Below, piece by piece: positions 3,409-24,845 of a stretch of 45,293 nt of DNA (within the stretch, counting starts at the first letter, position 1; each line of letters starts with the position of its first letter). The position numbers and the translations under genes were made by a program. The stretch comes from Akkermansia muciniphila (GTDB taxonomy: Bacteria > Verrucomicrobiota > Verrucomicrobiia > Verrucomicrobiales > Akkermansiaceae): positions 1-45,293 of the forward strand of contig CAMCCX010000016.1 in the NCBI GenBank assembly GCA_945873305.1, in the 5' to 3' direction. Under the pieces are notes generated by a model. It ran no database searches. It worked only from the letters and a program-made list of their open reading frames with translations, and was not told the DNA's origin.

Positions 3409-4134
3409 TTAGGACTCGGTGGAGGATTCGTCGCCCGCGGCGGCGGCCGGAATGCCGACGGTGCCGAGGGCGAGTTGTTGCTCGGGATCGGCGGCGGGTG
3501 CCGGCGCGAGTTCGGGCTCGGGCAGCTTCACCTTGCGCAGTTCCGTGGCGTTCGGGAGGTCGTCGATGGAGCGGATGCCGAAGTGTTCGAAGAACAGATC
3601 CGTCGTTTCGTAAAGCAGCGGGCGGCCCGGCAGTTCGGCGCGACCGCCGATGCGGATCAGGTCGCGGTCGAGGAGTTTCTGGATCATCCCGTCGCAAGCC
3701 ACGCCGCGGACCGCCTCGATGGCGGCCTTGGTGATGGGCTGGCGGTAGGCGATGATGGCGAGAGTTTCCATCGCCGGGCCGCTCATCCGCTCGGGCTTGC
3801 GGCCGGGGAAAAGCTGGCGGACGAACTCGCCGTATTCGATGCGGGTGAAGACTTTCCAGCCTTTCGGGCGCTCGATGATGGTGAAGGCGCGCTGGCTTTC
3901 CTGATAGGTCTGGTTCAGCTCGGCGATGGCTTCGGTGACTTTTTCCGCGGACGTCGCGGTGAGGGCTAACAACCAGTCCGGCAGGGCGGGGGCTTCTTTC
4001 CCCTCCTCGGTTTCGCGGATTTTGACGTCTTCCGCCTCGGCGACGCGGGCGCGCACCAACCGGGCAATTTCCTCGGACGGGAGAGGATTTTGAGAGGCGA
4101 TGAGAAGGGCTTCGACGATGGCGCTGAGCTGCAT
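3409..4134 (-). CDS. scpB: Segregation and condensation protein B
   Basis: ScpB is the kleisin-associated winged-helix subunit of the SMC-ScpAB condensin, acting in chromosome organisation and segregation. The 241-aa protein opens with MQLSAIVEALLIASQNPL and shows the conserved core: RIEYGEFVRQLF, the SGPAMETLAIIAYRQPITK stretch, IEAVRGV.CDG, LLDRDLI, and the GRPLLYETTDLFFEHFGI block. The C-terminal tail (about 205-241) is Ala/Pro/Glu-rich and probably disordered. ATG 4134 was chosen over 4173 because the family starts there and an AAGG lies about 13 bases upstream, one of the few Shine-Dalgarno-like sites here. No scpA is in the window. It is divergent from the DksA-like gene. Confidence 0.93.
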   Translation of the reverse strand: MQLSAIVEALLIASQNPLPSEEIARLVRARVAEAEDVKIRETEEGKEAPALPDWLLALTATSAEKVTEAIAELNQTYQESQRAFTIIERPKGWKVFTRIEYGEFVRQLFPGRKPERMSGPAMETLAIIAYRQPITKAAIEAVRGVACDGMIQKLLDRDLIRIGGRAELPGRPLLYETTDLFFEHFGIRSIDDLPNATELRKVKLPEPELAPAPAADPEQQLALGTVGIPAAAAGDESSTES

Positions 4135-14031: not shown

Positions 14032-15471
14032 ATGAGCACAAGTCCCGCATCTTCCAGTTTAGCCGATGCCTCGATGTTGCCGCCGATCATTCAAGGTGGG
14101 ATGGGAATCGGGGTGTCCGGCTGGCGTTTGGCGCGGGCGGTTTCGCAACTGGGCCAGCTCGGTGTGGTCTCGGGGACCGCGCTGGATCTGTTACTGACGA
14201 GGCAACTCCAGCTGGGCGATACCGGCGGCCATTTGCGGCGCGCGCTTGACGCGTTTCCCTATCCGGAAGTCGCGAGGCGCATTCTCGGCCGTTATTTCAT
14301 TCCGGGCGGCAAGGAGGACGACGCTCCTTTCAAAACGCCGCCGATGATTTCCCACCAGCCCTCGCGATCCACCCGCGAGCTGGTGATCGCGTCGAGTTTC
14401 GTCGCGGTCCATCTCGCCAAGGAAGGTCACGCGGGATGGGTGGGACTCAATCTGTTGGAAAAAATCCAGACGCCGACCTTGCTGGCGCTTTACGGCGCGA
14501 TGCTTGCCGGCGTCAACGTGGTGCTGATGGGCGCGGGAATTCCCCGCCAAATCCCGAAAATCCTCGACGATCTGGCCGCCGGAAATCCCGCCGAGATGCG
14601 GCTCGACGTGACGGGCGCGAAGGAGCCCGTGCTGATCCATCTCGATCCCGCGGAATTCGGCCCGGTGCCGGAACTCGCGCGGCCGATCTTCCTCGCGATC
14701 GTCTCCTCGCCGGTGCTGGCGGAAAACCTCCGCCGCAAATCGTCCGGGCGGGTCGATGGATTCGTGGTGGAAGCCGCGATCGCCGGCGGCCACAACGCGC
14801 CGCCGCGCGGACCGATGCAACTCACGGCCGAGGGCGAGCCGATCTACGGCGAGCGCGACCGGATCGATCCCGCGAAGTTCGCGGAAATCGGCCTGCCGTT
14901 CTGGCTGGCCGGCGGTTACGGCCGCATCGGCAAGCTGCGTGAGGCGCAGGCGCTCGGAGCGAAGGGCATCCAGGTGGGAACGGCGTTCGCGTTCTGCGAG
15001 GAGTCCGGATTCGATCCTTCGATCAAAGCTGAAATCCTCGCGGGCGTGAAACGCGACGATTTGAAAGTCCACACCGACGCGTTCGCGTCGCCCACGGGTT
15101 TCCCGTTCAAGGTCGCGCAAGTGACGGGCAGCATCGCCGATCCTTCGGTCTATCAAGAGCGCGGCCGCGTGTGCGATCTCGGGGTGCTGCGCGAAATATA
15201 TCAGAAACCCGATGGCGGCGTCGGCTACCGTTGCTCGGCCGAGCCCGAGGACGCTTACATCGCGAAAGGCGGTGACCCGTCGCAAACCGCGGGCCGTATC
15301 TGTTTGTGCAATTCACTCGCCTCGTCCGCCGGAATCCCGCAAATCCGCCACGGAAACGTGGAACCGCAGCTCATCACCATTGGCGACGATCTCAACGCCG
15401 TGCGCGAGTCGCTGCTGAAAGGTCGCGACAGCTACACTGCGGCGGACGTGATCGAGCGGCTGCTGGCGTGA
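14032..15471 (+). CDS. Nitronate monooxygenase-like flavoprotein (NPD/PfaD-type)
   Basis: A 479-aa FMN-binding TIM-barrel protein of the 2-nitropropane dioxygenase family. Visible family features are PPIIQGGMGIGVSGWRLA at the N-terminus, GWVGLNLLEKIQ, VNVVLMGAGIPRQIP, a catalytic-region GFVVEAAIAGGHNAPPRG (His in the NMO position), and the phosphate-binding FWLAGGYGR and GIQVGTAFAFC loops. The length exceeds classical nitronate monooxygenases (about 330-380 aa) and fits the longer PfaD-like group. Its substrate is unknown. It follows ric on the same strand by 78 bases, and a possible shared role in nitrosative or oxidative stress is inference. Confidence 0.8.
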   Translation: MSTSPASSSLADASMLPPIIQGGMGIGVSGWRLARAVSQLGQLGVVSGTALDLLLTRQLQLGDTGGHLRRALDAFPYPEVARRILGRYFIPGGKEDDAPFKTPPMISHQPSRSTRELVIASSFVAVHLAKEGHAGWVGLNLLEKIQTPTLLALYGAMLAGVNVVLMGAGIPRQIPKILDDLAAGNPAEMRLDVTGAKEPVLIHLDPAEFGPVPELARPIFLAIVSSPVLAENLRRKSSGRVDGFVVEAAIAGGHNAPPRGPMQLTAEGEPIYGERDRIDPAKFAEIGLPFWLAGGYGRIGKLREAQALGAKGIQVGTAFAFCEESGFDPSIKAEILAGVKRDDLKVHTDAFASPTGFPFKVAQVTGSIADPSVYQERGRVCDLGVLREIYQKPDGGVGYRCSAEPEDAYIAKGGDPSQTAGRICLCNSLASSAGIPQIRHGNVEPQLITIGDDLNAVRESLLKGRDSYTAADVIERLLA

Positions 15472-15577: not shown

Positions 15578-17146
15578 TTATTTCCTGCGTTGCAGGAATA
15601 GGTCGATGCCGTCCACGAGGGCGAGCCAGCTGGCTTCGATGATGTTGTCGGAAACGCCGACGGTGCCCCAGGTGGTCTCGCCGTCGGTGGAGACGATGAG
15701 CACGCGGGTCTTGGCGGCGGTGGCGTCGTGGCCGTCGAGGATGCGGACCTTGTAATCGACGAGCGAGACGCCGGAAATTTCCGGATAGAACGGCAGCAGC
15801 GCCTTGCGCAGCGCGAGGTCGAGCGCGTTGACCACGCCGTGGCCTTCCGCAACCGTTAGCTCGGGCGTGCCACCGACGGCGAGCTTGACGGTGGCTTCGC
15901 AGATCGGCGGGTGGCCGTCGCGATACTGGCGGAAGGTGGTGTGGTATTCCTTGAGGTCGAAGGTTTTCACGTAGTCCCCGAGCTCGCGGCGGATGAGGAT
16001 TTCCAACGAGCCGCCGGCGGCTTCGTAGGAGTAGCCTTCGTTTTCCAGGTCCTTGACGCGGCGCAGGATCGCACCGGCGACGGGCGAACCTTTCTCTAGC
16101 GGCAGGCCGAGCTCCTCGGCTTTGACGAGGATGTTCGACTGGCCGCTGAGTTCGGAAACGAGGATGTTCTGCGAGTTTCCGACGCTGCCGGGGACGATGT
16201 GCTCGTAGCTGCGGGCGAGTTTCTGCACGGCGTTGACGTGCATGCCGCCCTTGTGGGCGAAGGCGGTGCGGCCGACGAAGGCGGCGCGGGCGAAGTGCGG
16301 GTTGTTGGAAACGTCGTCCACGAAATACGACAGGTCGCGGAGTTGTTCGAGGTGCGGGACGACCGGCATGTCCATCTTGAGCTGGAGGATGGGGATGACG
16401 GAGGTGAGGTTGCAGTTGCCGGTGCGCTCGCCGTAGCCGTTGATGGTGCCTTGGATCTGGTTGGCTCCTGCCCTAACGGCGGCGATGGCGTTCGCCACGG
16501 CGAGCTCGCAGTCGTTGTGCGTGTGGATGCCGAACGGTGTGTCTGGCAGGTGTTTTTTCACGGCCATGCAGATTTGCATGACTTCTGAGGGAAGCGTGCC
16601 GCCGTTGGTGTCGCAGAGGACGAGGCAGGCGGCGCCACCGTCGGCGGCGGCTTGGAGTGTGGCGAGCGCGTGGTCCGGCGAGTCCTTGTAGCCGTCGAAA
16701 AAGTGCTCGGCGTCATAGACCACCTCGCGGCCGTGTTTCACCAGATAGGCCACGGTGTCGCGGATCATCGCCTGGTTTTCCCCGACGGTGGTGCGGAGGA
16801 CTTCGGTGACCTGGAGCTCCCAGCTTTTTCCGAAAATGGTGACCACCGGAGTCTCGGCTTCGAGCAGCAGGCGGACCTGCGGGTCTTTCTCGACGGGGGT
16901 GTCCGCGCGGCGGGTGGAGCCGAACGCGGCGAGCTTCGCGTGGGTGAGTTTGAGATTCTTCGCCTCGCGGAAAAACTCGATGTCCTTGGGATTGGAGCCC
17001 GGCCAGCCGCCTTCGATGTAGTCGATGCCGAACTCGTCCAAGCGCTTCGCGATCCGCAGCTTGTCGAGGCCGGACAGTTGGAATCCTTCGCCCTGCGTGC
17101 CATCGCGCAGGGTCGTGTCGTAGAGAAATACAGGTTTGGAGCTCAT
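15578..17146 (-). CDS. cimA: (R)-citramalate synthase
   Basis: Condenses pyruvate and acetyl-CoA to citramalate, a threonine-independent route to isoleucine. The 522-aa protein is a DRE-TIM metallolyase like LeuA: FLYDTTLRDGTQGEGFQLS at the N-terminus, DYIEGGWPGSNPKD, the metal-binding GIHTHNDCELAVAN, and QGTINGYGERTGNCNL. The C-terminal LeuA-type allosteric domain (about 395-522) should bind isoleucine. The GxxPGSNPKD and length match the CimA subgroup better than isopropylmalate synthase. ATG 17146 was chosen because conserved residues begin at once; the longer frame is antisense noise. A degraded copy of its 5' part sits in the pseudogene at 20720-21314. Confidence 0.92.
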   Translation of the reverse strand: MSSKPVFLYDTTLRDGTQGEGFQLSGLDKLRIAKRLDEFGIDYIEGGWPGSNPKDIEFFREAKNLKLTHAKLAAFGSTRRADTPVEKDPQVRLLLEAETPVVTIFGKSWELQVTEVLRTTVGENQAMIRDTVAYLVKHGREVVYDAEHFFDGYKDSPDHALATLQAAADGGAACLVLCDTNGGTLPSEVMQICMAVKKHLPDTPFGIHTHNDCELAVANAIAAVRAGANQIQGTINGYGERTGNCNLTSVIPILQLKMDMPVVPHLEQLRDLSYFVDDVSNNPHFARAAFVGRTAFAHKGGMHVNAVQKLARSYEHIVPGSVGNSQNILVSELSGQSNILVKAEELGLPLEKGSPVAGAILRRVKDLENEGYSYEAAGGSLEILIRRELGDYVKTFDLKEYHTTFRQYRDGHPPICEATVKLAVGGTPELTVAEGHGVVNALDLALRKALLPFYPEISGVSLVDYKVRILDGHDATAAKTRVLIVSTDGETTWGTVGVSDNIIEASWLALVDGIDLFLQRRK

Positions 17147-17323
17147 CGGCAGGGGCGCGGAACTTAATGGCCGCCGCGCGGATGGGCAAGGGAGAAGCGC
17201 GGGGGCGTCAGGGTGGGGGAGACCGGGGCGGAGCGGCAGGTATTCGTGGTTTCTCGTGAAAGATTTCACCCGGAAATTTCGTTTCGGGGGCTTGCCGCTT
17301 TGCAACCCCGCCCGATTTTCAAA

Positions 17324-19237
17324 ATGACCGATTCACGACCGTCCCCGCTCCCCGGAATGCTGCCGCTTCTCTTGAGTGGAATGGCGCTGGTGGCGCCGGT
17401 CTCGGCCGCCCCGGATTTCGTTCACGAGGTCGCGCCGATTTTGAAAAAGCACTGTTCCGAATGTCACACCGACACCAAGAAAAAGGCGGGGCTCTCGATG
17501 AATGACGAGGCGTCGTTCCGGGAGGGCTCGGAAAACGGCCCGATCATCGACGCCGCGCACCCGGAAAAAAGCCTGATGCTCGAACTGATTTCGTCCGATG
17601 ACGAGGACCTCCGGATGCCGCCGAAGGGCAAGGGGCTCAGCGACCCGCAGGTGGAAATCATCAAGGCGTGGGTGATCTCAGGGGCGAAATGGGAGCCGGG
17701 CTTCGCGTTCAAAAAGCCGGCCTACGAGCCGCCGCTCCGTCCTCGGAATCCCGAGCTACCAGCTGCCCGCGACGGTCGCACCAACCCGATCGACCGGATC
17801 ATCGACCACTACCTCGCCGAAAAAAAACTGCCCCGGCCCGCCCCGCTCGACGACACCGCGTTTCTCCGGCGCGTCCATCTCGATCTCGTCGGATTGCTTC
17901 CCTCGGCGGAGACCTTGCGGACCTTCACCGCCGACCGGGCGCCGGACAAGCGGGCCCGCCTGGTGGACACATTGCTCGCGGACAAGACCGCCTACGCCGA
18001 ACACTGGCTGACGTTCTGGAACGACCTGCTCCGCAACGACTACGCCGGCACCGGCTACATCGACGGCGGCCGCAAGCAGATCAGCGGCTGGCTCTATCAG
18101 GCGATTTACGACAACATGCCCTACGACGAGTTCGTCCGCCAGCTGGTCGCGCCGAATCCCGAGAACGAGGGTTTCGCCAACGGCATCAAATGGCGTGGCA
18201 GCGTTTCCGCGGCGCAAATCACCCCGATGCAATACGCCCAGTCGGTCGGCCAGACCTTTCTCGGCATCAACCTGAAATGCGCGTCCTGTCACGATTCATT
18301 CGTCGATCGCTGGAAGCTCAGCGAGGCGTATGGCTTGGCGGCGATCTATGCGGACGAACCGTTGGAAATGTTTCGCTGTGACAAACCGACCGGCAAGACC
18401 GCCGTCCCCGGCTGGTTGTTCCCGGAACTCGGCACGGTGGACGCCAGCCTGCCGAAGGCGGAGCGCCTGAAACAACTCGCGGCCCTCATCACCCATCCGG
18501 AAAACGGACGCACGCCGCGCGCCATCACCAACCGTCTCTGGCAGCGTCTGATGGGGCGCGGCATCGTGCATCCCGTGGATGCGATGCAATCGCCGCCGTG
18601 GAACGAGGATCTCCTGGATTACCTCGGAGCGCACCTCGCGGAAAACCAGCAGGATTTGAAAAAGACGCTGCGGCTGATCTGCCTTTCGGCGGCCTATCAA
18701 TCGAAGTCCGAGTCGTTCGAGGAGGCACCCCAGGAGTCCAACTATGTCTATCAAGGCCCGCGCCCCAAGCGGCTTACCGCCGAGGAGTTCACCGACGCGA
18801 TCTGGCAGATCTGCGGCACCGCGCCCGGCAAGATCGACGCGCCGGTGAAGCGCGATTCGTCCGCCAGCCCGCAGCCGATGGTCCGGGCGGCGTTGCTGAA
18901 ATCCGACTTGCTGATGCGCACGCTTGGCCGCCCGAACCGCGAGCAGATCGTGAGCAGCCGTCCGAACGATCTCGCGACCTTGGAAGCGATGGATCTCAAC
19001 AACGGCGCGATCCTCGACCAGCGCCTGGCCGAGGGCGCGCGATCATTGTTAGCCAGGAACCTCGGCTCCTCCGAAACTCTGGCCACCTATGTCTGGCAGG
19101 CCGCGCTTTCCCGGGAACCGACGCCGGATGAACTCCGGCTCGCCGTCTCCATGTTAGGCGCGAAGCCGGAAGCCGCCGCCATCCAGGACTTCCTGTGGGG
19201 AGTCTTCATGCTGCCGGAATTCCAGATCGTCCGCTGA
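17324..19237 (+). CDS. Planctomycete-type cytochrome / DUF1549 / DUF1553 protein
   Basis: A 637-aa exported protein of a family expanded in Planctomycetes and Verrucomicrobia. A Sec signal peptide (about 1-26) is followed by a PSCyt1 cytochrome-like domain with HCSECH (about residue 46) and RMPPKGKGLS. Then comes DUF1549 (about 135-340; FLRRVHLDLVGLLPS, AEHWLTFWNDLLRNDY, and a second haem-type motif CASCHDSF), and DUF1553 (about 390-637; TPRAITNRLWQRLMGRGIV, LGRPNREQI). The two CxxCH sites suggest haem binding, and function is unknown. The next gene is DUF1501, the usual partner, starting 23 bases later, so the two are an operon. Confidence 0.92.
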   Translation: MTDSRPSPLPGMLPLLLSGMALVAPVSAAPDFVHEVAPILKKHCSECHTDTKKKAGLSMNDEASFREGSENGPIIDAAHPEKSLMLELISSDDEDLRMPPKGKGLSDPQVEIIKAWVISGAKWEPGFAFKKPAYEPPLRPRNPELPAARDGRTNPIDRIIDHYLAEKKLPRPAPLDDTAFLRRVHLDLVGLLPSAETLRTFTADRAPDKRARLVDTLLADKTAYAEHWLTFWNDLLRNDYAGTGYIDGGRKQISGWLYQAIYDNMPYDEFVRQLVAPNPENEGFANGIKWRGSVSAAQITPMQYAQSVGQTFLGINLKCASCHDSFVDRWKLSEAYGLAAIYADEPLEMFRCDKPTGKTAVPGWLFPELGTVDASLPKAERLKQLAALITHPENGRTPRAITNRLWQRLMGRGIVHPVDAMQSPPWNEDLLDYLGAHLAENQQDLKKTLRLICLSAAYQSKSESFEEAPQESNYVYQGPRPKRLTAEEFTDAIWQICGTAPGKIDAPVKRDSSASPQPMVRAALLKSDLLMRTLGRPNREQIVSSRPNDLATLEAMDLNNGAILDQRLAEGARSLLARNLGSSETLATYVWQAALSREPTPDELRLAVSMLGAKPEAAAIQDFLWGVFMLPEFQIVR

Positions 19238-19260
19238 ACCACTTTCCTGAACCGACCGCC

Positions 19261-20697
19261 ATGCAACCGCTCCAGCTCGACCCCGAACAGCCCCGCCGGG
19301 ACTTCCTGAAAAAACTTTCCGCGGCGTCCATCGCCGCGCTGATGGCCCGCGCGCCCCGTGCTTCGGCGGAAACGATCCTCCAGCCGAAGGCCACGGCGGA
19401 CGCGTGCATCGTGCTGTGGATGGGCGGCGGTATGGCGGCTCCCGAGACCTTCGATCCCAAGGCCTATCAGCCGTTCGTCAAGGGCGCGCCCGTTTCGAAA
19501 ATGTTGTCCACCTTTCCGGCGATCGACACGTCGGTGGACAACATCAAGATCTGCCAGGGGCTTGAAAAGATCGCCAAGGTGATGGACCGCGCCACCCTCA
19601 TCCGCTCGGCGGTGCAGCCGGATCTCGGGACCATCCTTCATTCGCGCCATCAATATCACTGGCACACCGGCTACGTGCCGCCGCAGACCGTCGCCGCGCC
19701 GCACATCGGCGCGTGGATGGCCAAGGTGCTCGGGCCGCGCAATCCGGTGATGCCCGCTTTCATCAACATCGGCCAGCGGCTCGAAGGCGTGGGCGAATCC
19801 GAGGAGCTCAAGGCCTTCACCACCGGCGGATTTTTCGGCTCGGAGTTCGGGCCGATGAACCTGCCGTTCCCCGAGGAAGCGATGCTCGCCGTGCGTCCGC
19901 CGAAGGGCATGGACCCCGGCCGTTTCGCCAACCGCCGAGCGTTTTTCAAGAACCTGATCGACCGGAACCCGCACCGCGACCTGATGTCCGACTATCAGCA
20001 GGAGTCGATGCTCCGCTCGTTGGAAAGCGCCCACCGCTTGCTGGCGGCCCCCGAGGCGAAAGCCTTCGATCTCGGCCTGGAGTCGCAGGAGGTCCGCGAC
20101 GCTTACGGCAAAAGCCATTTCGGCCAGGGCTGCCTGCTGGCCCGGAAACTGGTGGAGAGCGGCGCGCGCTTCGTCGAGGTCACGACGGAATACGTGCCGT
20201 TTCTGAACTGGGACACCCATGCGAACGGGCACGAGGTGGCGGAGCGGATGCACCGCGAAATCGACTCGCCGATCGCCCGTCTGATCCTCGATCTGGAGGA
20301 GAGAAACCTACTGGATCGCACGCTGGTCATCATCGCCTCCGAGTTCAGCCGGGATGCGATGATCGAGGGGGTTCCGGGCTCGAAGGCGAAGGATCAATCC
20401 AACGCGGAATCGGACCTGCTGTTGGAGCCGAAGCACTACGGCCTGCACCGCCATTTCACCGGCGGCTCGTCGGTGGTGATGTTCGGCGGCGGGATGAAGC
20501 GCGGTTTCCTCCATGGCGCGACGGCGGACGAACGCCCGCTGGTCACCACCACCCAGCCGGTGTCGATCTCGGATCTTCACGCCACGATTTTCACCGCCAT
20601 GGGCATCAGCCCGAAGACGATGTATGAGGTCGAGCAGCGTCCCTTCTACGCGACCGAGGACGGCAAGGGAGTTGCCGTGAAGGAGGTTTTCGCCTGA
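19261..20697 (+). CDS. DUF1501 family protein, Tat-exported
   Basis: A 478-aa DUF1501 protein, alkaline-phosphatase/sulfatase-like in fold, whose activity is not established. It opens with a twin-arginine signal (RRDFLKK then a hydrophobic AASIAALMA stretch, cleavage near RASA). Conserved features are CIVLWMGGGMAAPETFDPK, YHWHTGYVPPQ, NWDTHANGHE, TLVIIASEFSRD and a final ISDLHATIFTAMGI. Potential metal ligands are the Asp/His in NWDTHANGH and LHATI. It is encoded directly after the DUF1549/1553 gene and likely acts with it in the periplasm. Confidence 0.92.
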   Translation: MQPLQLDPEQPRRDFLKKLSAASIAALMARAPRASAETILQPKATADACIVLWMGGGMAAPETFDPKAYQPFVKGAPVSKMLSTFPAIDTSVDNIKICQGLEKIAKVMDRATLIRSAVQPDLGTILHSRHQYHWHTGYVPPQTVAAPHIGAWMAKVLGPRNPVMPAFINIGQRLEGVGESEELKAFTTGGFFGSEFGPMNLPFPEEAMLAVRPPKGMDPGRFANRRAFFKNLIDRNPHRDLMSDYQQESMLRSLESAHRLLAAPEAKAFDLGLESQEVRDAYGKSHFGQGCLLARKLVESGARFVEVTTEYVPFLNWDTHANGHEVAERMHREIDSPIARLILDLEERNLLDRTLVIIASEFSRDAMIEGVPGSKAKDQSNAESDLLLEPKHYGLHRHFTGGSSVVMFGGGMKRGFLHGATADERPLVTTTQPVSISDLHATIFTAMGISPKTMYEVEQRPFYATEDGKGVAVKEVFA

Positions 20698-20719
20698 AAT
20701 CCCCGGTCCTGCTTCTGAC

Positions 20720-21314
20720 AGGTCTCCAGGGTCTTGACGAACTGGTAGAAGTCGGCGGCGGAGGGGCTGGAGTTGTAGGCGGTAGCGTAAATGCCGGTGG
20801 CCTGTGCGTCGGCCTTGCCCTTGATTTCCTGCTCCTTGCGGTAGGCTTCTGACTGGATGGAGAGCAGGTCGCGCTCTTTGCGGCCGAGGATCTTGGCGGC
20901 CTCGCCGGCGCCTTCCGAGCGGAAGCGGTCGGCGATCTGCTCGCGCTCCGAGGACATCCGCCTGTAGATCTTGTCGATGACGCCGGGGTTGTAGTTGATG
21001 CGCTTGAAGCGGACGTCGAGCAGCTCGATGCCCCAGGAGCGGACTTTCGGCTGGGCGGCCTTGAGGATTTGCTCGTCGAGGGTGTTTCTGCCGAAGCGGA
21101 TCGGCGGGAGCTGGCCGAGGTTGGAGCTGGCCGCGGCAAGCGCCTCGTCGCGCACGGGCGTGAGTTTGAGGCTCTCCCCCTCGCGGAAAAACTCGATGTC
21201 TTTCGGGTTATCGCCCGGCCAGCGCCTTCGATGTAGTCGATGCCGAACTCGTCGAGATGCATCGCGATCCGCAGCTTGTCGAGGCCGGAAAGTTAGAATC
21301 CTTCGCCCTGCGTG
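20720..21314 (-). pseudogene. Chimeric pseudogene: cimA 5' fragment fused to hflC 3' fragment
   Basis: Read on the minus strand, 21314-21160 matches cimA 17099-16944 (about 89% by my base count), and 21159-20720 continues directly as hflC 23255-22816 (about 96%, 17 differences over about 440). The cimA part has lost one C relative to cimA (near 21221) and carries a CAA-to-TAA nonsense change in GFQLSG, so it cannot be expressed from the cimA start. The fusion point is in frame (LKLT joined to PVRDEAL). No hflC start or membrane anchor is present. The hflC-derived frame itself is still open for about 170 codons. It lies just after the DUF1501 stop. Confidence 0.85.
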
Positions 21315-21442
21315 GCAGCTGCAAGGCCGCCGAAAGCACCGTGCAAATCCTCTGCGCCTGACCCTATCGAACGACATGCTTTGCATGGGTTGCTCCGTTC
21401 TTGCCGCGATGGCGGCCAAGTAGAACAAGCGCAGCCATCGAT

Positions 21443-22660
21443 ATGAACTCAACTCTTGCCACCGCAGCCCTGCTTTGGCTGGGCGCGGGATTTTTGGGAT
21501 ACGGTTCCGCAGGAACACCGCCGGCCGCCGCTTCCGCACCCACCGGCATCCTCGTCGGGAAACTCGCCGAAGGCTCAGCCTATGACCGCCTGTGGTCGCT
21601 GCCGCTGCTTTATAAAGACGAAGCGAACCCGGTGCTTCAGGAGCTCGCGTTCCAAGGCCAGCTCCAGACCCAATACGCCTATGGTTCCGATGATTCCGGA
21701 AACTTCGGCTCTGGCGACAAACCGGACGCCAACACCTGGGGTGACGTCGATGTCCGGCGCTTTCGCTTCGGCATCAAGGCCCGCTTGTTTCACTCGCTGA
21801 AATTCCACAGCCTGCTGGACCTCTATCCGGATCTGTCGCCGCGGATCTACCAGCGCACCGCCGAGGCCTACCTCACCTACTCGCCCTGCGATGCCTTCAG
21901 CCTCTCCGTTGGCAAGGCCGAGCTGAAGTTCACCCGCGAGCAGGAAATCTCCTCCCGGGAAATCCTCACCTTCGAGCGCTCCCAACTCGTCAACCAATTC
22001 TACGGCGGCGAACTCACCGGTGCCTGGATCTCCGGCAAAAACCTTGCCGGCGGCTGGTTTTATGAACTCGGGGCCTATGGCAACGACCGCACCGACGAGT
22101 GGACGACCCTGGATGGCGGCACCGTGATCCTCGCCAAGCTCGGTTACAACTACACCGGGTCCACCTCCTTCGACAACGCCATGGCGGAACTCCACTACCT
22201 GCACAATTCCGATCCGGGATACGCCTCCCCCGGCGATCCGCCGTCGGCTCCCTATCCGGATGCCGTCGCTGTTTCCAACACCATCACCGAAGGGCGCTTC
22301 GGGCTGGAAACCGAGGCGTTCTGGGGCGATGGCCCGCTCGGCAAGGCGGACGTCTGGGGCGTGACGGCCATTCCCTCATGGTTTCTCACGGAAAAACTCC
22401 AGTGCGTCGCCATGCTCGAATATGCCTGCAGCAGCGATCCCAACGGGATTTTCCTGCGCTACCGCTATGAGGGCCAGGCTCCCGGCGGGGTCAAAAGCGG
22501 CGACGCGTTCTTTGCCTGCTACAGCGGCCTCAACTACTACCTCTACGGCCACAAGCTCAAGCTCATGTCCGGTGTGAAATACACCTTCATGGACGGGGAC
22601 ACTCAAGCGGAGGATTTCAACGGCTGGACCGGGCTGGTCGGCTTGCGCATGGCCTACTGA
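21443..22660 (+). CDS. Phosphate-selective porin OprO/OprP-type outer-membrane protein
   Basis: A 405-aa outer-membrane beta-barrel protein resembling the porin O/P family. Residues 1-30 form a signal peptide (TLATAALLWLGAGFLGYGS). The rest is rich in alternating aromatic beta-strand patterns: VDVRRFRFGIKARLFHSLKF, a FSLSVGKAELKFTRE strand, YELGAYGNDRTD, and a terminal WTGLVGLRMAY ending in an aromatic residue as BAM substrates do. FRFG/KxxF and the 'GKxxxKFTREQE' layout match the family. Substrate specificity (phosphate, polyphosphate or other) cannot be told. It is convergent with hflC; a G+C-rich hairpin (22697-22702 with 22714-22719) lies between. Confidence 0.75.
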   Translation: MNSTLATAALLWLGAGFLGYGSAGTPPAAASAPTGILVGKLAEGSAYDRLWSLPLLYKDEANPVLQELAFQGQLQTQYAYGSDDSGNFGSGDKPDANTWGDVDVRRFRFGIKARLFHSLKFHSLLDLYPDLSPRIYQRTAEAYLTYSPCDAFSLSVGKAELKFTREQEISSREILTFERSQLVNQFYGGELTGAWISGKNLAGGWFYELGAYGNDRTDEWTTLDGGTVILAKLGYNYTGSTSFDNAMAELHYLHNSDPGYASPGDPPSAPYPDAVAVSNTITEGRFGLETEAFWGDGPLGKADVWGVTAIPSWFLTEKLQCVAMLEYACSSDPNGIFLRYRYEGQAPGGVKSGDAFFACYSGLNYYLYGHKLKLMSGVKYTFMDGDTQAEDFNGWTGLVGLRMAY

Positions 22661-22720: not shown

Positions 22721-23695
22721 TCAGGGTTTCGGGGTCTCGATGTGTTTGAAGAGGCGGAACAGGTCGCTGTTGGAAGTCATGATGGTGGTGGTGTCCTTGC
22801 CGAGGGTTTTCTGGTAGGTTTCGAGGGTCTTGACGAACTGGTAGAAGTCCGCGGCGGAGGGGCTGGAGCTGTAGGCTGAGGCGTAGATGCCGGTGGCCTG
22901 GGCGTCGGCCTTGCCCTTGATTTCCTGCTCCTTGCGGTAGGCTTCGGACTGGATGGAGAGCAGGTCGCGCTCCTTGCGGCCGAGGATTTTGGCGGCCTCG
23001 CCGGCGCCTTCCGAGCGGAAGCGGTCGGCGATTTGCTCGCGCTCCGAGGACATGCGCTTGTAGATCTTGTCGATGACGCCGGGCTTGTAGTTGATGCGCT
23101 TGAAGCGGACGTCGAGCAGCTCGATGCCCCAGGAGCGGACTTTCGGCTGGGCGGCTTTGAGGATTTGCTCGTCGAGGGTGTTTCTGCCGAAGCGGATCGG
23201 CGGGAGCTGGCCGAGGTTGGAGCTGGCCGCGGCAAGCGCCTCGTCGCGCACGGGCTTGCGGTCCTTGTCGCTGCGGATCACCTCGATCAAGTCGTGGGAG
23301 GCGATGACGTTGCGGGTCTCGCTGCCGATGATGTCGTCGAGCCGGGAAAGGGCGCTGCGCTCGTCGCGGAGTTTTTCGAAATAGGTCTTCGGGTCGGAGA
23401 TGCGCCAGCGGGCGAAGTTGTCCACGGTGATGTAGAGCTTGTCGCGGGTGGGCATTTCGGTGGCCGGGCCGTCCCATTCGAGCATCCGCTTTTCGATGCG
23501 GTTGACCTGCTGGATGAAGGGTTTTTTCCAATGCAGGCCGGCCTCGTTTTTCGCGGGGTCGGCGTTGATCGGATCGCCGACGGGCTTGCCGAACTCGGTG
23601 ATGAAGACCTGCTCCGCTTGATTCACGGTGTAGGCGCTGCTGGCGATGATGATGACGCCGACGAAGGCGACGATGAGAATGGAAATGGCTTTCAT
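22721..23695 (-). CDS. hflC: HflC-type SPFH/band 7 membrane protein
   Basis: With HflK it forms the large periplasmic-facing SPFH cage that surrounds and modulates the FtsH protease. The 324-aa protein has an N-terminal membrane helix (SILIVAFVGVIIIASSAYTV), then the SPFH domain (about 25-190, with GLHWKKPFIQQVNRIEKR and DNFARWRISDP), and a long coiled coil (about 200-290, ADRFRSEGAGEAAKILGRKERD). It ends FRLFKHIETPKP. It follows hflK by 24 bases and is the source of the larger part of the pseudogene at 20720-21314. Confidence 0.92.
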   Translation of the reverse strand: MKAISILIVAFVGVIIIASSAYTVNQAEQVFITEFGKPVGDPINADPAKNEAGLHWKKPFIQQVNRIEKRMLEWDGPATEMPTRDKLYITVDNFARWRISDPKTYFEKLRDERSALSRLDDIIGSETRNVIASHDLIEVIRSDKDRKPVRDEALAAASSNLGQLPPIRFGRNTLDEQILKAAQPKVRSWGIELLDVRFKRINYKPGVIDKIYKRMSSEREQIADRFRSEGAGEAAKILGRKERDLLSIQSEAYRKEQEIKGKADAQATGIYASAYSSSPSAADFYQFVKTLETYQKTLGKDTTTIMTSNSDLFRLFKHIETPKP

Positions 23696-23719
23696 GAAGG
23701 TGGGAAGTTAGGGGTCGGA

Positions 23720-24688
23720 TTACTTGAGGTTCATGAGCGGGAGGAACTGCTTGGCGTCCTCGTCGATGATGATTTTCGAGCCGAGCTTGGGCAGCACCTC
23801 GTTCATGGTTTCCAGATAGAGACGTTGTTTGGTGATGGCCGGGGCCTTGTCGTATTGGACGAGGAGTTCCTTGAAACGGGCGACGTCGCCCTCCGCCTCG
23901 TTGACGCGCTGGACGGCGAAGCCCTCGGCGCCGGAGATCCGCTGGTCGGCGAGTCCCTTGGCGCGCGGGATGACTTTGTTATACTCGCCGTTGGCCTCGT
24001 TGATCATCTGCTCGCGCTCCTGTTGGGCGCGGTTGACTTCGTCGAACGAGCGCTGGACCGGGGCGGGCGGGTGGACGTTCTTGAGTTGGATCTGCTCGGC
24101 GGTGACTCCCATGTTGAGTTTTTCCAACAGGACTTTCAGGCGGATGAGCGCTTCGGTTTCGATCTCGGTGCGGCCGATGGTGAGGACCTCGTCCACCGTG
24201 CGGTCGCCGATGACCTCGCACATCACGCCCTCGGTGAGGTCGCGCAGGGTGGAGCCGGGGCGGCGCACTTGAAAGAGGTAGTCCTGGGGCGAGGAGATGC
24301 TGTATTGGACGATCCACTCGACCTGGGCGGCGTTGAGGTCGCCGGTGACCATGTCGCGCTCGAGTTCGGGCGCTTCGCTGGCTTGGTCGGGATTGGTCGA
24401 GCCGCTGGTGGTGAAGCCGAATTCAAGCTTCAGCTGGCGGCGGACCGGCACGATGGTGGCGGTGTCGATGCCGTAGGGCAGCTTGAAGTGCAGGCCGGGC
24501 TTGGCGATGAACTGGAATTTCCCGAAGCGCTGGACGACGGCTTCGGCCTCGGGGCTCACGGTGTAATAGCTTGAAAACAGGCCTATCAGCAGGAAGACGC
24601 CGAGTGGGGCGAGGATGAGCCACTTGGGAGAAAAGTTCAGCTTGGGGCGCGGAAAATCGATGGTGTTGTTGAACGGAGGCGGTTTCAT
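23720..24688 (-). CDS. hflK: HflK-type SPFH/band 7 membrane protein
   Basis: A 322-aa partner of HflC in the FtsH-regulating SPFH complex. A cytoplasmic leader precedes one membrane helix (WLILAPLGVFLLIGLFSSYY, about 26-45). The SPFH domain (about 45-230) shows VVQRFGKFQFIAKPGLHFKLPYG-type sequence, and a coiled-coil segment follows (EVNRAQQEREQMINEANGEYN). It is shorter than E. coli HflK. ATG 24688 was chosen since the upstream open frame encodes no family residues. hflK precedes hflC as in the classical operon; hflX and hfq are absent here. Confidence 0.92.
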   Translation of the reverse strand: MKPPPFNNTIDFPRPKLNFSPKWLILAPLGVFLLIGLFSSYYTVSPEAEAVVQRFGKFQFIAKPGLHFKLPYGIDTATIVPVRRQLKLEFGFTTSGSTNPDQASEAPELERDMVTGDLNAAQVEWIVQYSISSPQDYLFQVRRPGSTLRDLTEGVMCEVIGDRTVDEVLTIGRTEIETEALIRLKVLLEKLNMGVTAEQIQLKNVHPPAPVQRSFDEVNRAQQEREQMINEANGEYNKVIPRAKGLADQRISGAEGFAVQRVNEAEGDVARFKELLVQYDKAPAITKQRLYLETMNEVLPKLGSKIIIDEDAKQFLPLMNLK

Positions 24689-24845
24689 AATCAGATAGCG
24701 AGTGGCCAGGCGCGCCCTGAAGCGCGGCGGAGCCGGAAGATAGGAGCAAACCACGGGATTAGGAACCTTGAAAATTCGGTAGTGATTGTAATCGGCCGGG
24801 CGTTTGCGGGGGGCGGATTTATTCAAGGTTTCCTAAGGATTGGCT

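Follow-up and report, generated by a model that had tools for sequence, protein, structure and literature searches.

A truncated hflC copy fused to a decayed cimA copy in Akkermansia muciniphila: a probable seam between two versions of one neighbourhood

Between a DUF1501 protein gene and a porin gene, a genome of Akkermansia muciniphila carries a truncated second copy of hflC joined head-to-tail to a truncated second copy of cimA. This segment is probably a non-functional seam, at which a single faulty recombination set an interval of the type seen in one relative (G001) before an interval of the type seen in another (G011). Both single versions of the neighbourhood persist in those relatives, the joint carries a short sequence common to both parent genes, and the two halves of the segment have diverged to very different extents.

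The segment and its neighbourhood in relatives

The stretch of DNA that was analysed, here called the window, comprises 45,293 nucleotides. The partial copies are referred to as hflC' and cimA', and the genome to which the window belongs as G000. The features that matter here are as follows.

15578-17146, minus strand: intact cimA (citramalate synthase type; HMGL-like and LeuA_dimer domains), from open reading frame, Pfam and orthologues
16944-17102, minus strand: stretch of cimA equivalent to cimA' (codons 15-68), from alignment
17324-19237, plus strand: DUF1549/DUF1553 protein gene with a planctomycete-type cytochrome domain, its start predicted, from Pfam and relatives
19261-20697, plus strand: DUF1501 protein gene, from open reading frame and Pfam
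20713-21159, minus strand: hflC', truncated and mosaic, its left 287 bp divergent from and its right 160 bp nearly identical to the resident hflC, from alignment
21155-21162, no strand: hflC'/cimA' joint with GCTTG-type microhomology, from sequence comparison
21160-21317, minus strand: cimA', truncated and decayed (one-base loss, TAA), from alignment
21318-21360, plus strand: fragment of a transposase gene, presumably ISAs1-type, joined to cimA' at a common CCCTGCG, from alignment and from Pfam of the full G016 gene
21443-22660, plus strand: intact porin gene (Porin_O_P), from Pfam and relatives
22721-23695, minus strand: intact hflC (SPFH/Band 7), from open reading frame and Pfam
22809-23255, minus strand: stretch of hflC equivalent to hflC', from alignment
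23720-24826, minus strand: hflK (SPFH/Band 7), from open reading frame and Pfam

The minus-strand pair thus stands between the end of DUF1501 (20697) and the start of the porin gene (21443). hflC' repeats codons 147-296 of hflC and is identical to 22809-23255 at 428 of 447 bases without a gap (E 1.0e-208); it is truncated on both sides and shows little decay. cimA' corresponds to codons 15-68 of cimA; it is identical to 16944-17102 at 140 of 158 aligned bases (E 5.7e-51) and has lost one base after 21222 and acquired a TAA in the cimA frame at 21293-21295. Both matches are far beyond chance. The initial annotation had described a chimeric cimA::hflC pseudogene arisen by duplication, about 96% identical to its parent in the hflC part and 89% in the cimA part, with a nonsense codon and a one-base loss in the cimA part. 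That description is supported by the truncation, the frameshift, the stop and the lost codon constraint in cimA', and its identities agree with the counts above. It had also placed the segment rightly, apart from the ends: it begins at 20713 instead of 20720, and its cimA part reaches 21317 instead of 21314. Matches to the segment fall at exactly three places in G000 (3.06 Mb in 171 contigs), so that the chimera is single-copy, as had been proposed.

A third piece, beyond the two originally recognized, follows cimA'. Of the 43 bases at 21318-21360, 37 are identical to a transposase gene in G016, with six mismatches and no gap, and none of 1000 shuffles matched as well. The full G016 gene carries DDE_Tnp_1 and DDE_Tnp_1-associated domains in Pfam, and we take its family to be ISAs1. 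The motif CCCTGCG is common to cimA and the transposase gene at the cimA'/IS joint, and no transposase match was found at 21361-21442. Elsewhere, close to the left end of the window, lies a 70-bp direct repeat (257-326 and 374-443) that is 80% identical.

The two intervals of the window occur separately in relatives. G001 has cimA, DUF1549, DUF1501 and hflC in sequence, with about 130 bp from the DUF1501 stop to the hflC stop; this DUF1501-hflC interval is without porin, without chimera and without the cimA'-IS-porin block, and window positions 15586-20697 align to G001 in a single block. In the same genome, an imperfect palindrome lies between DUF1501 and hflC (locus L023, 6942-7023). G011 has the region upstream of cimA (up to window position 17215), then a 23-base transposase match, a porin 3' remnant and hflC. 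The 23-base piece resembles the same transposase gene as the window's fragment (one mismatch, one gap; 0 of 1000 shuffles), the decayed porin remnant holds the position of the window's intact porin, and the flank from porin to hflC is alike in both, with one stretch absent from G011. No DUF1549-DUF1501 pair was found in the G011 assembly (about 90% complete), where that stretch yielded no more than a 77-bp match, the scoring having covered 30 of 75 candidates.

In the window the two intervals follow each other, cimA-DUF1549-DUF1501-hflC' first and cimA'-IS-porin-hflC second, and cimA' therefore stands where G011 has its intact cimA, and hflC' where G001 has its intact hflC. The initial annotation spoke of two distant fragments brought together; a single joint, of which the G001 and G011 neighbourhoods are the two halves, is the better reading.

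Comparison of the DUF1549 neighbourhood at 18 loci places the cimA-DUF1549-DUF1501 order in G013 and G009 as well, with no hflC found behind it. Sequence matching the DUF genes at 79% also occurs in G002 and G024. G013 was considered as a third stacked relative and rejected: its hflC lies on another contig, its downstream region is unlike that of the window, and it gave no transposase match. hflC and cimA are direct neighbours in G046 and G049, indicating that hflK-hflC-cimA can adjoin, and likewise in G051, with scraps of hflC and hflK. This adjacency is not universal, since the two genes lie about 1.2 Mb apart in G063 and 76 kb apart in G004 (contig coordinates of one-contig genomes).

The joint and the divergence of its two halves

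At the joint, hflC reads GGGCTTG (GGGCTTGCGG), the cimA genes of G001 and G013 read GTGCTTGAG, and the chimera reads GGGCGTGAG. GCTTG, about 5 bp, is common to hflC and to the G001 and G013 cimA; the window reads GCGTG where these parents have GCTTG, and the resident cimA is changed there too. A common GCTTG with one later change is the simplest reading of the joint. The gene direction across it is cimA' then hflC', head-to-tail relative to the single-copy locus. An exact, in-frame fusion at 21159/21160 had been proposed: the frames do agree, which has a one-in-three chance, while GCTTG is common to both parents, so that the joint is not placeable to the base. Because the cimA frame is broken upstream of the joint (shift at 21222, TAA at 21293-21295), nothing from the cimA start reads into hflC'. 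A search of 73 genomes of the genus, G000 included, gave matches at E 1e-40 or better in 46; among these the joint is well crossed only in G000, the next longest overrun reaching 12 bases past it in G050. An intact third gene containing the segment, a possibility raised at the outset, was found in none of the 73.

The unequal divergence of the two halves is real, as the initial annotation had held. Against nine other rows, cimA' has 11 private changes (including the lost base and one at 21315), seven at second, three at first and one at third codon positions; the change at 21315 may belong to the IS and was left out of the test of first and second positions. Between hflC' and the resident hflC there are 19 differences, of which 15 fall at third positions. 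Private changes at first and second positions number 9 at 104 sites in cimA' (lost base counted) versus 2 at 298 in hflC' (p 1e-4), or versus 2 at 191 in the left part of hflC' (p 0.002); these counts depend on the relatives aligned, and the row sets differ (10 for cimA, 11 for hflC). This pattern indicates that the differences in hflC' mostly date from its time in a working gene and those in cimA' from after its death. cimA' has long been decayed. In a tree of the short piece its end branch measures 0.097, versus at most 0.012 for the cimA of G000, G001, G011 and G013, with distant relatives reaching 0.16; no fork in the trees of the short cimA' and hflC' pieces reached the tool's support threshold. 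Identity of cimA' to cimA is 91.1% in G013, 90.4% in G001, 88.6% in its own genome, 87.9% in G011, 84.7% in G009 and 82.7% in G049.

hflC' itself is a mosaic. Compared with the resident hflC, it differs at 18 of 287 sites left of position 23096 and at 1 of 160 to the right, whereas G011a, one hflC version of G011, shows the reverse pattern, with 4 differing sites on the left and 12 on the right. A Fisher test on these four counts (4, 18, 12 and 1) gives p 4e-5, the split at 23096 having been chosen after viewing the data. Free of any split, every one of the 14 positions at which hflC', of the two, alone departs from the resident hflC falls to the left of the 11 at which G011a alone does; 0 of 20000 permutations gave so extreme an arrangement (5 sites common to hflC' and G011a left out). 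Furthermore, at 23234 and 23249 the resident hflC and hflC' have a base common to them only, among the eight rows compared. This sharp mosaic supports gene conversion with hflC, which the initial annotation had offered beside a two-event origin, or an exchange of alleles, as the cause of the unequal divergence.

The resident gene is 98.6% identical to G011a left of the patch, 99.5% in the 5' part of the gene and 92.5% in the right 160 bp, the part in which it agrees with hflC'. hflC' could accordingly have given sequence to hflC, or have received it, since every row varies within the patch and G011a carries bases of its own there. Identities between G011a and the window in the surroundings are 93.9% for cimA and 92.1% for the gene after hflK, below those of hflC around the patch. 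Along window positions 22800-24600, 200-base bins of hflC-hflK are 95-100% identical to the G011a locus (L024), while cimA and the gene after hflK stand at 92-94%. A recent exchange between lineages is a possible source of this similarity. G011 itself has two hflC-hflK versions (L024 on contig C132, L025 on contig C131), 91.8% identical in the 450-bp hflC segment, which may reflect a strain mixture or allelic replacement; the two loci are nearly identical in their first stretch, before the two versions begin. Given the high identity to G011a around the patch and the two G011 versions, hflC-hflK alleles seem to have been exchanged in the group.

Origin of the joint

In the account considered probable here, a single illegitimate recombination at about 5 bp of microhomology would have made the joint, and the other end would have been closed by homologous recombination in or beyond cimA, either as in homology-facilitated illegitimate recombination (HFIR) or by single crossover of an end-joined fragment. 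A G001-type piece would thereby have entered a G011-type chromosome, with a homologous crossover on the cimA side and the illegitimate joint on the hflC side. Afterwards hflC' would have lost its 3' end next to DUF1501, a deletion would have run from cimA' into the IS at the common CCCTGCG, cimA' would have decayed freely, and exchange of sequence with functional hflC would have kept hflC' young. Today the fragment would provide a direct repeat of about 450 bp, suited to conversion or to deletion of the cimA'-IS-porin block. It is important to note what speaks against this account: cimA' is not specifically close to the G011 cimA, as stacking onto a G011-type chromosome would lead one to expect; the identity profile has no donor boundary between cimA and DUF1549 or across cimA and the DUF genes; and the joint occurs in one genome only, in a fragmented assembly (171 contigs). 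A single joining also predicts halves of equal age, whereas cimA' looks much older, even beside the left part of hflC'; the account therefore needs conversion or a second event as well.

The joint, and most of the anatomy, would look the same after an internal tandem duplication from hflC to cimA, with the DUF genes of one copy then replaced by IS and porin. This alternative competes on the origin of the joint only and is possible, if tentative. It predicts the same joint and the same order, with the cimA' to hflC' direction that a head-to-tail arrangement requires. G011 would have lost one copy by recombination between direct repeats, and G001 would have done likewise or never have been duplicated, collapses that the 447- and 158-bp direct repeats would allow. 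It also fits that cimA' is nearer to the cimA of G013, G001, G000 and G011 (87.9-91.1%) than to that of G009 or G049 (84.7% and 82.7%). However, the duplicated unit should contain the DUF pair, which adjoins cimA already in G009, more distant at cimA, so that an extra replacement step is needed, and no second DUF pair was found in G000. The position of these genes in G009 is why stacking is preferred over a tandem copy. The strongly unequal decay of the halves and the long end branch of cimA' (0.097) would instead suit two events, in which an old cimA' relic beside IS and porin later received the hflC piece; we consider this unlikely, as the second insertion would have to fall exactly at the edge of cimA' and the youth of hflC' is explicable by exchange with hflC, in line with the mosaic.

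An assembly artefact or a strain mixture in a metagenome-assembled genome is very improbable. The genome is in 171 contigs, and two coexisting contigs of G011, with hflC segments 91.8% identical, indicate that mixtures occur in the group, but a mis-join would copy existing sequence, whereas private changes, one lost base and a stop in this segment are absent from all rows (eight relatives for cimA, nine for hflC), and both the hflC'/cimA' and the cimA'/IS joint show short common sequence. Least credible of all is a functional chimeric gene or regulatory RNA made from hflC and cimA. The hflC' frame runs without a stop from 21539 to 20646, yet it starts antisense within the porin gene; since codons 1-14 of cimA and 1-146 of hflC are missing, no N-terminal membrane segment would be expected, and SPFH is matched only at profile positions 114-172 of 176, its last third. 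Third positions are not favoured among the changes in cimA', and exchange with functional alleles accounts for their excess in hflC'. A functional fusion gene was thus rejected, given the partial SPFH match, the missing cimA start, the joint in 1 of 73 genomes and the decay; a working product from the chimera appears unlikely.

Known recombination systems offer partial parallels. HFIR joints usually show 3-10 bp of microhomology, according to PMC3240628, and the roughly 5 bp of GCTTG at the window's illegitimate joint lie within that range. In that E. coli study, 56 of 60 clones gave a PCR product for a partial duplication of the homologous locus, 14 being sequenced, and these duplications were ascribed to single crossover of a circular molecule, not to true HFIR. 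The study concerns foreign DNA in a laboratory strain, whereas the window would involve two alleles in a natural genome; HFIR has one homologous and one illegitimate end, and in the window the homologous end of the putative event was not located. A second likeness is to insertion with long target duplication (Nobusato et al. 2000), described in PMC1643837, PMC3031569 and PMC3154945 for restriction-modification genes of Helicobacter pylori. The DUF pair with hflC' lies between 158-bp cimA repeats, and the cimA'-IS-porin block between 447-bp hflC repeats; the former was not found in G011, and the latter is absent from G001, relatives with a single target copy and no insert. The window differs from that model in stacking two different inserts and in having repeats that are decayed and partly converted.

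The novel joint of a bacterial tandem duplication is head-to-tail and fuses parts of two genes at short homology. The window's joint is likewise head-to-tail, cimA' then hflC', at short homology, but its two intervals have unlike content (DUF1549-DUF1501 versus IS and porin), which means that one copy was refilled or that there never was a simple tandem duplication. The kind of event is known, but its history here goes beyond the fusing of two fragments. In the literature collection searched, no paper joining hflC with cimA, or DUF1501 with DUF1549, in Verrucomicrobia was found.

The cimA locus in the genus and significance

Other genomes display further rearrangements at cimA. Directly behind the cimA of G023 come genes for a HigB-like toxin and an HTH protein (Pfam), and after them stands a second, 155-bp copy of the cimA 3' end, 96.8% identical; this toxin-antitoxin pair beside a duplicated cimA end hints that the locus may take such insertions repeatedly. 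In G068 (locus L208, contig C478), a 170-bp fragment at 3769-3938 contains a cimA 5' end, 87.6% identical to that genome's own cimA, and continues in frame into a 361-codon open frame that is unrelated. Upstream of cimA, varied open frames were seen in the six relatives examined. Partial internal copies or scraps of cimA occur in at least 4 of 61 genomes (G000, G023, G068 and a 30-codon scrap in G040), matches at contig ends in G002, G045 and G054 having been left out; for hflC, partial copies of at least 70% identity occur in 1 of 61 (E 1e-5). A FabK-like gene, intact in the window at 14032-15471, has left scraps in G001, G011 and G014, with no full copy found in these; those of G001 and G011 lie by cimA (L023 1544-1792 and L026 1851-2129). 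Taken together, these findings suggest a busy cimA locus, the control counts for hflC and the FabK-like gene being small; the numbers are too small for claiming that cimA is special.

A broader and quite doubtful reading would make the flanks of cimA a recurrent landing site, where cargo arriving by additive integration leaves partial copies of the target gene and where hflC' trades sequence with hflC, diversifying its variable stretch. The cargo would be DUF1549-DUF1501, the IS with the porin, and the HigB-like toxin with its HTH antitoxin-like gene in G023.

For annotation, the segment calls for caution, in that the in-frame open frame of hflC' is not a gene. Its own function is unlikely; what it documents is genome shuffling. 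Since relatives still carry each version of the neighbourhood on its own, the stacked state, the joint, the decay and the exchange can be traced step by step, which makes this an unusually legible case in a group known chiefly from metagenome assemblies.
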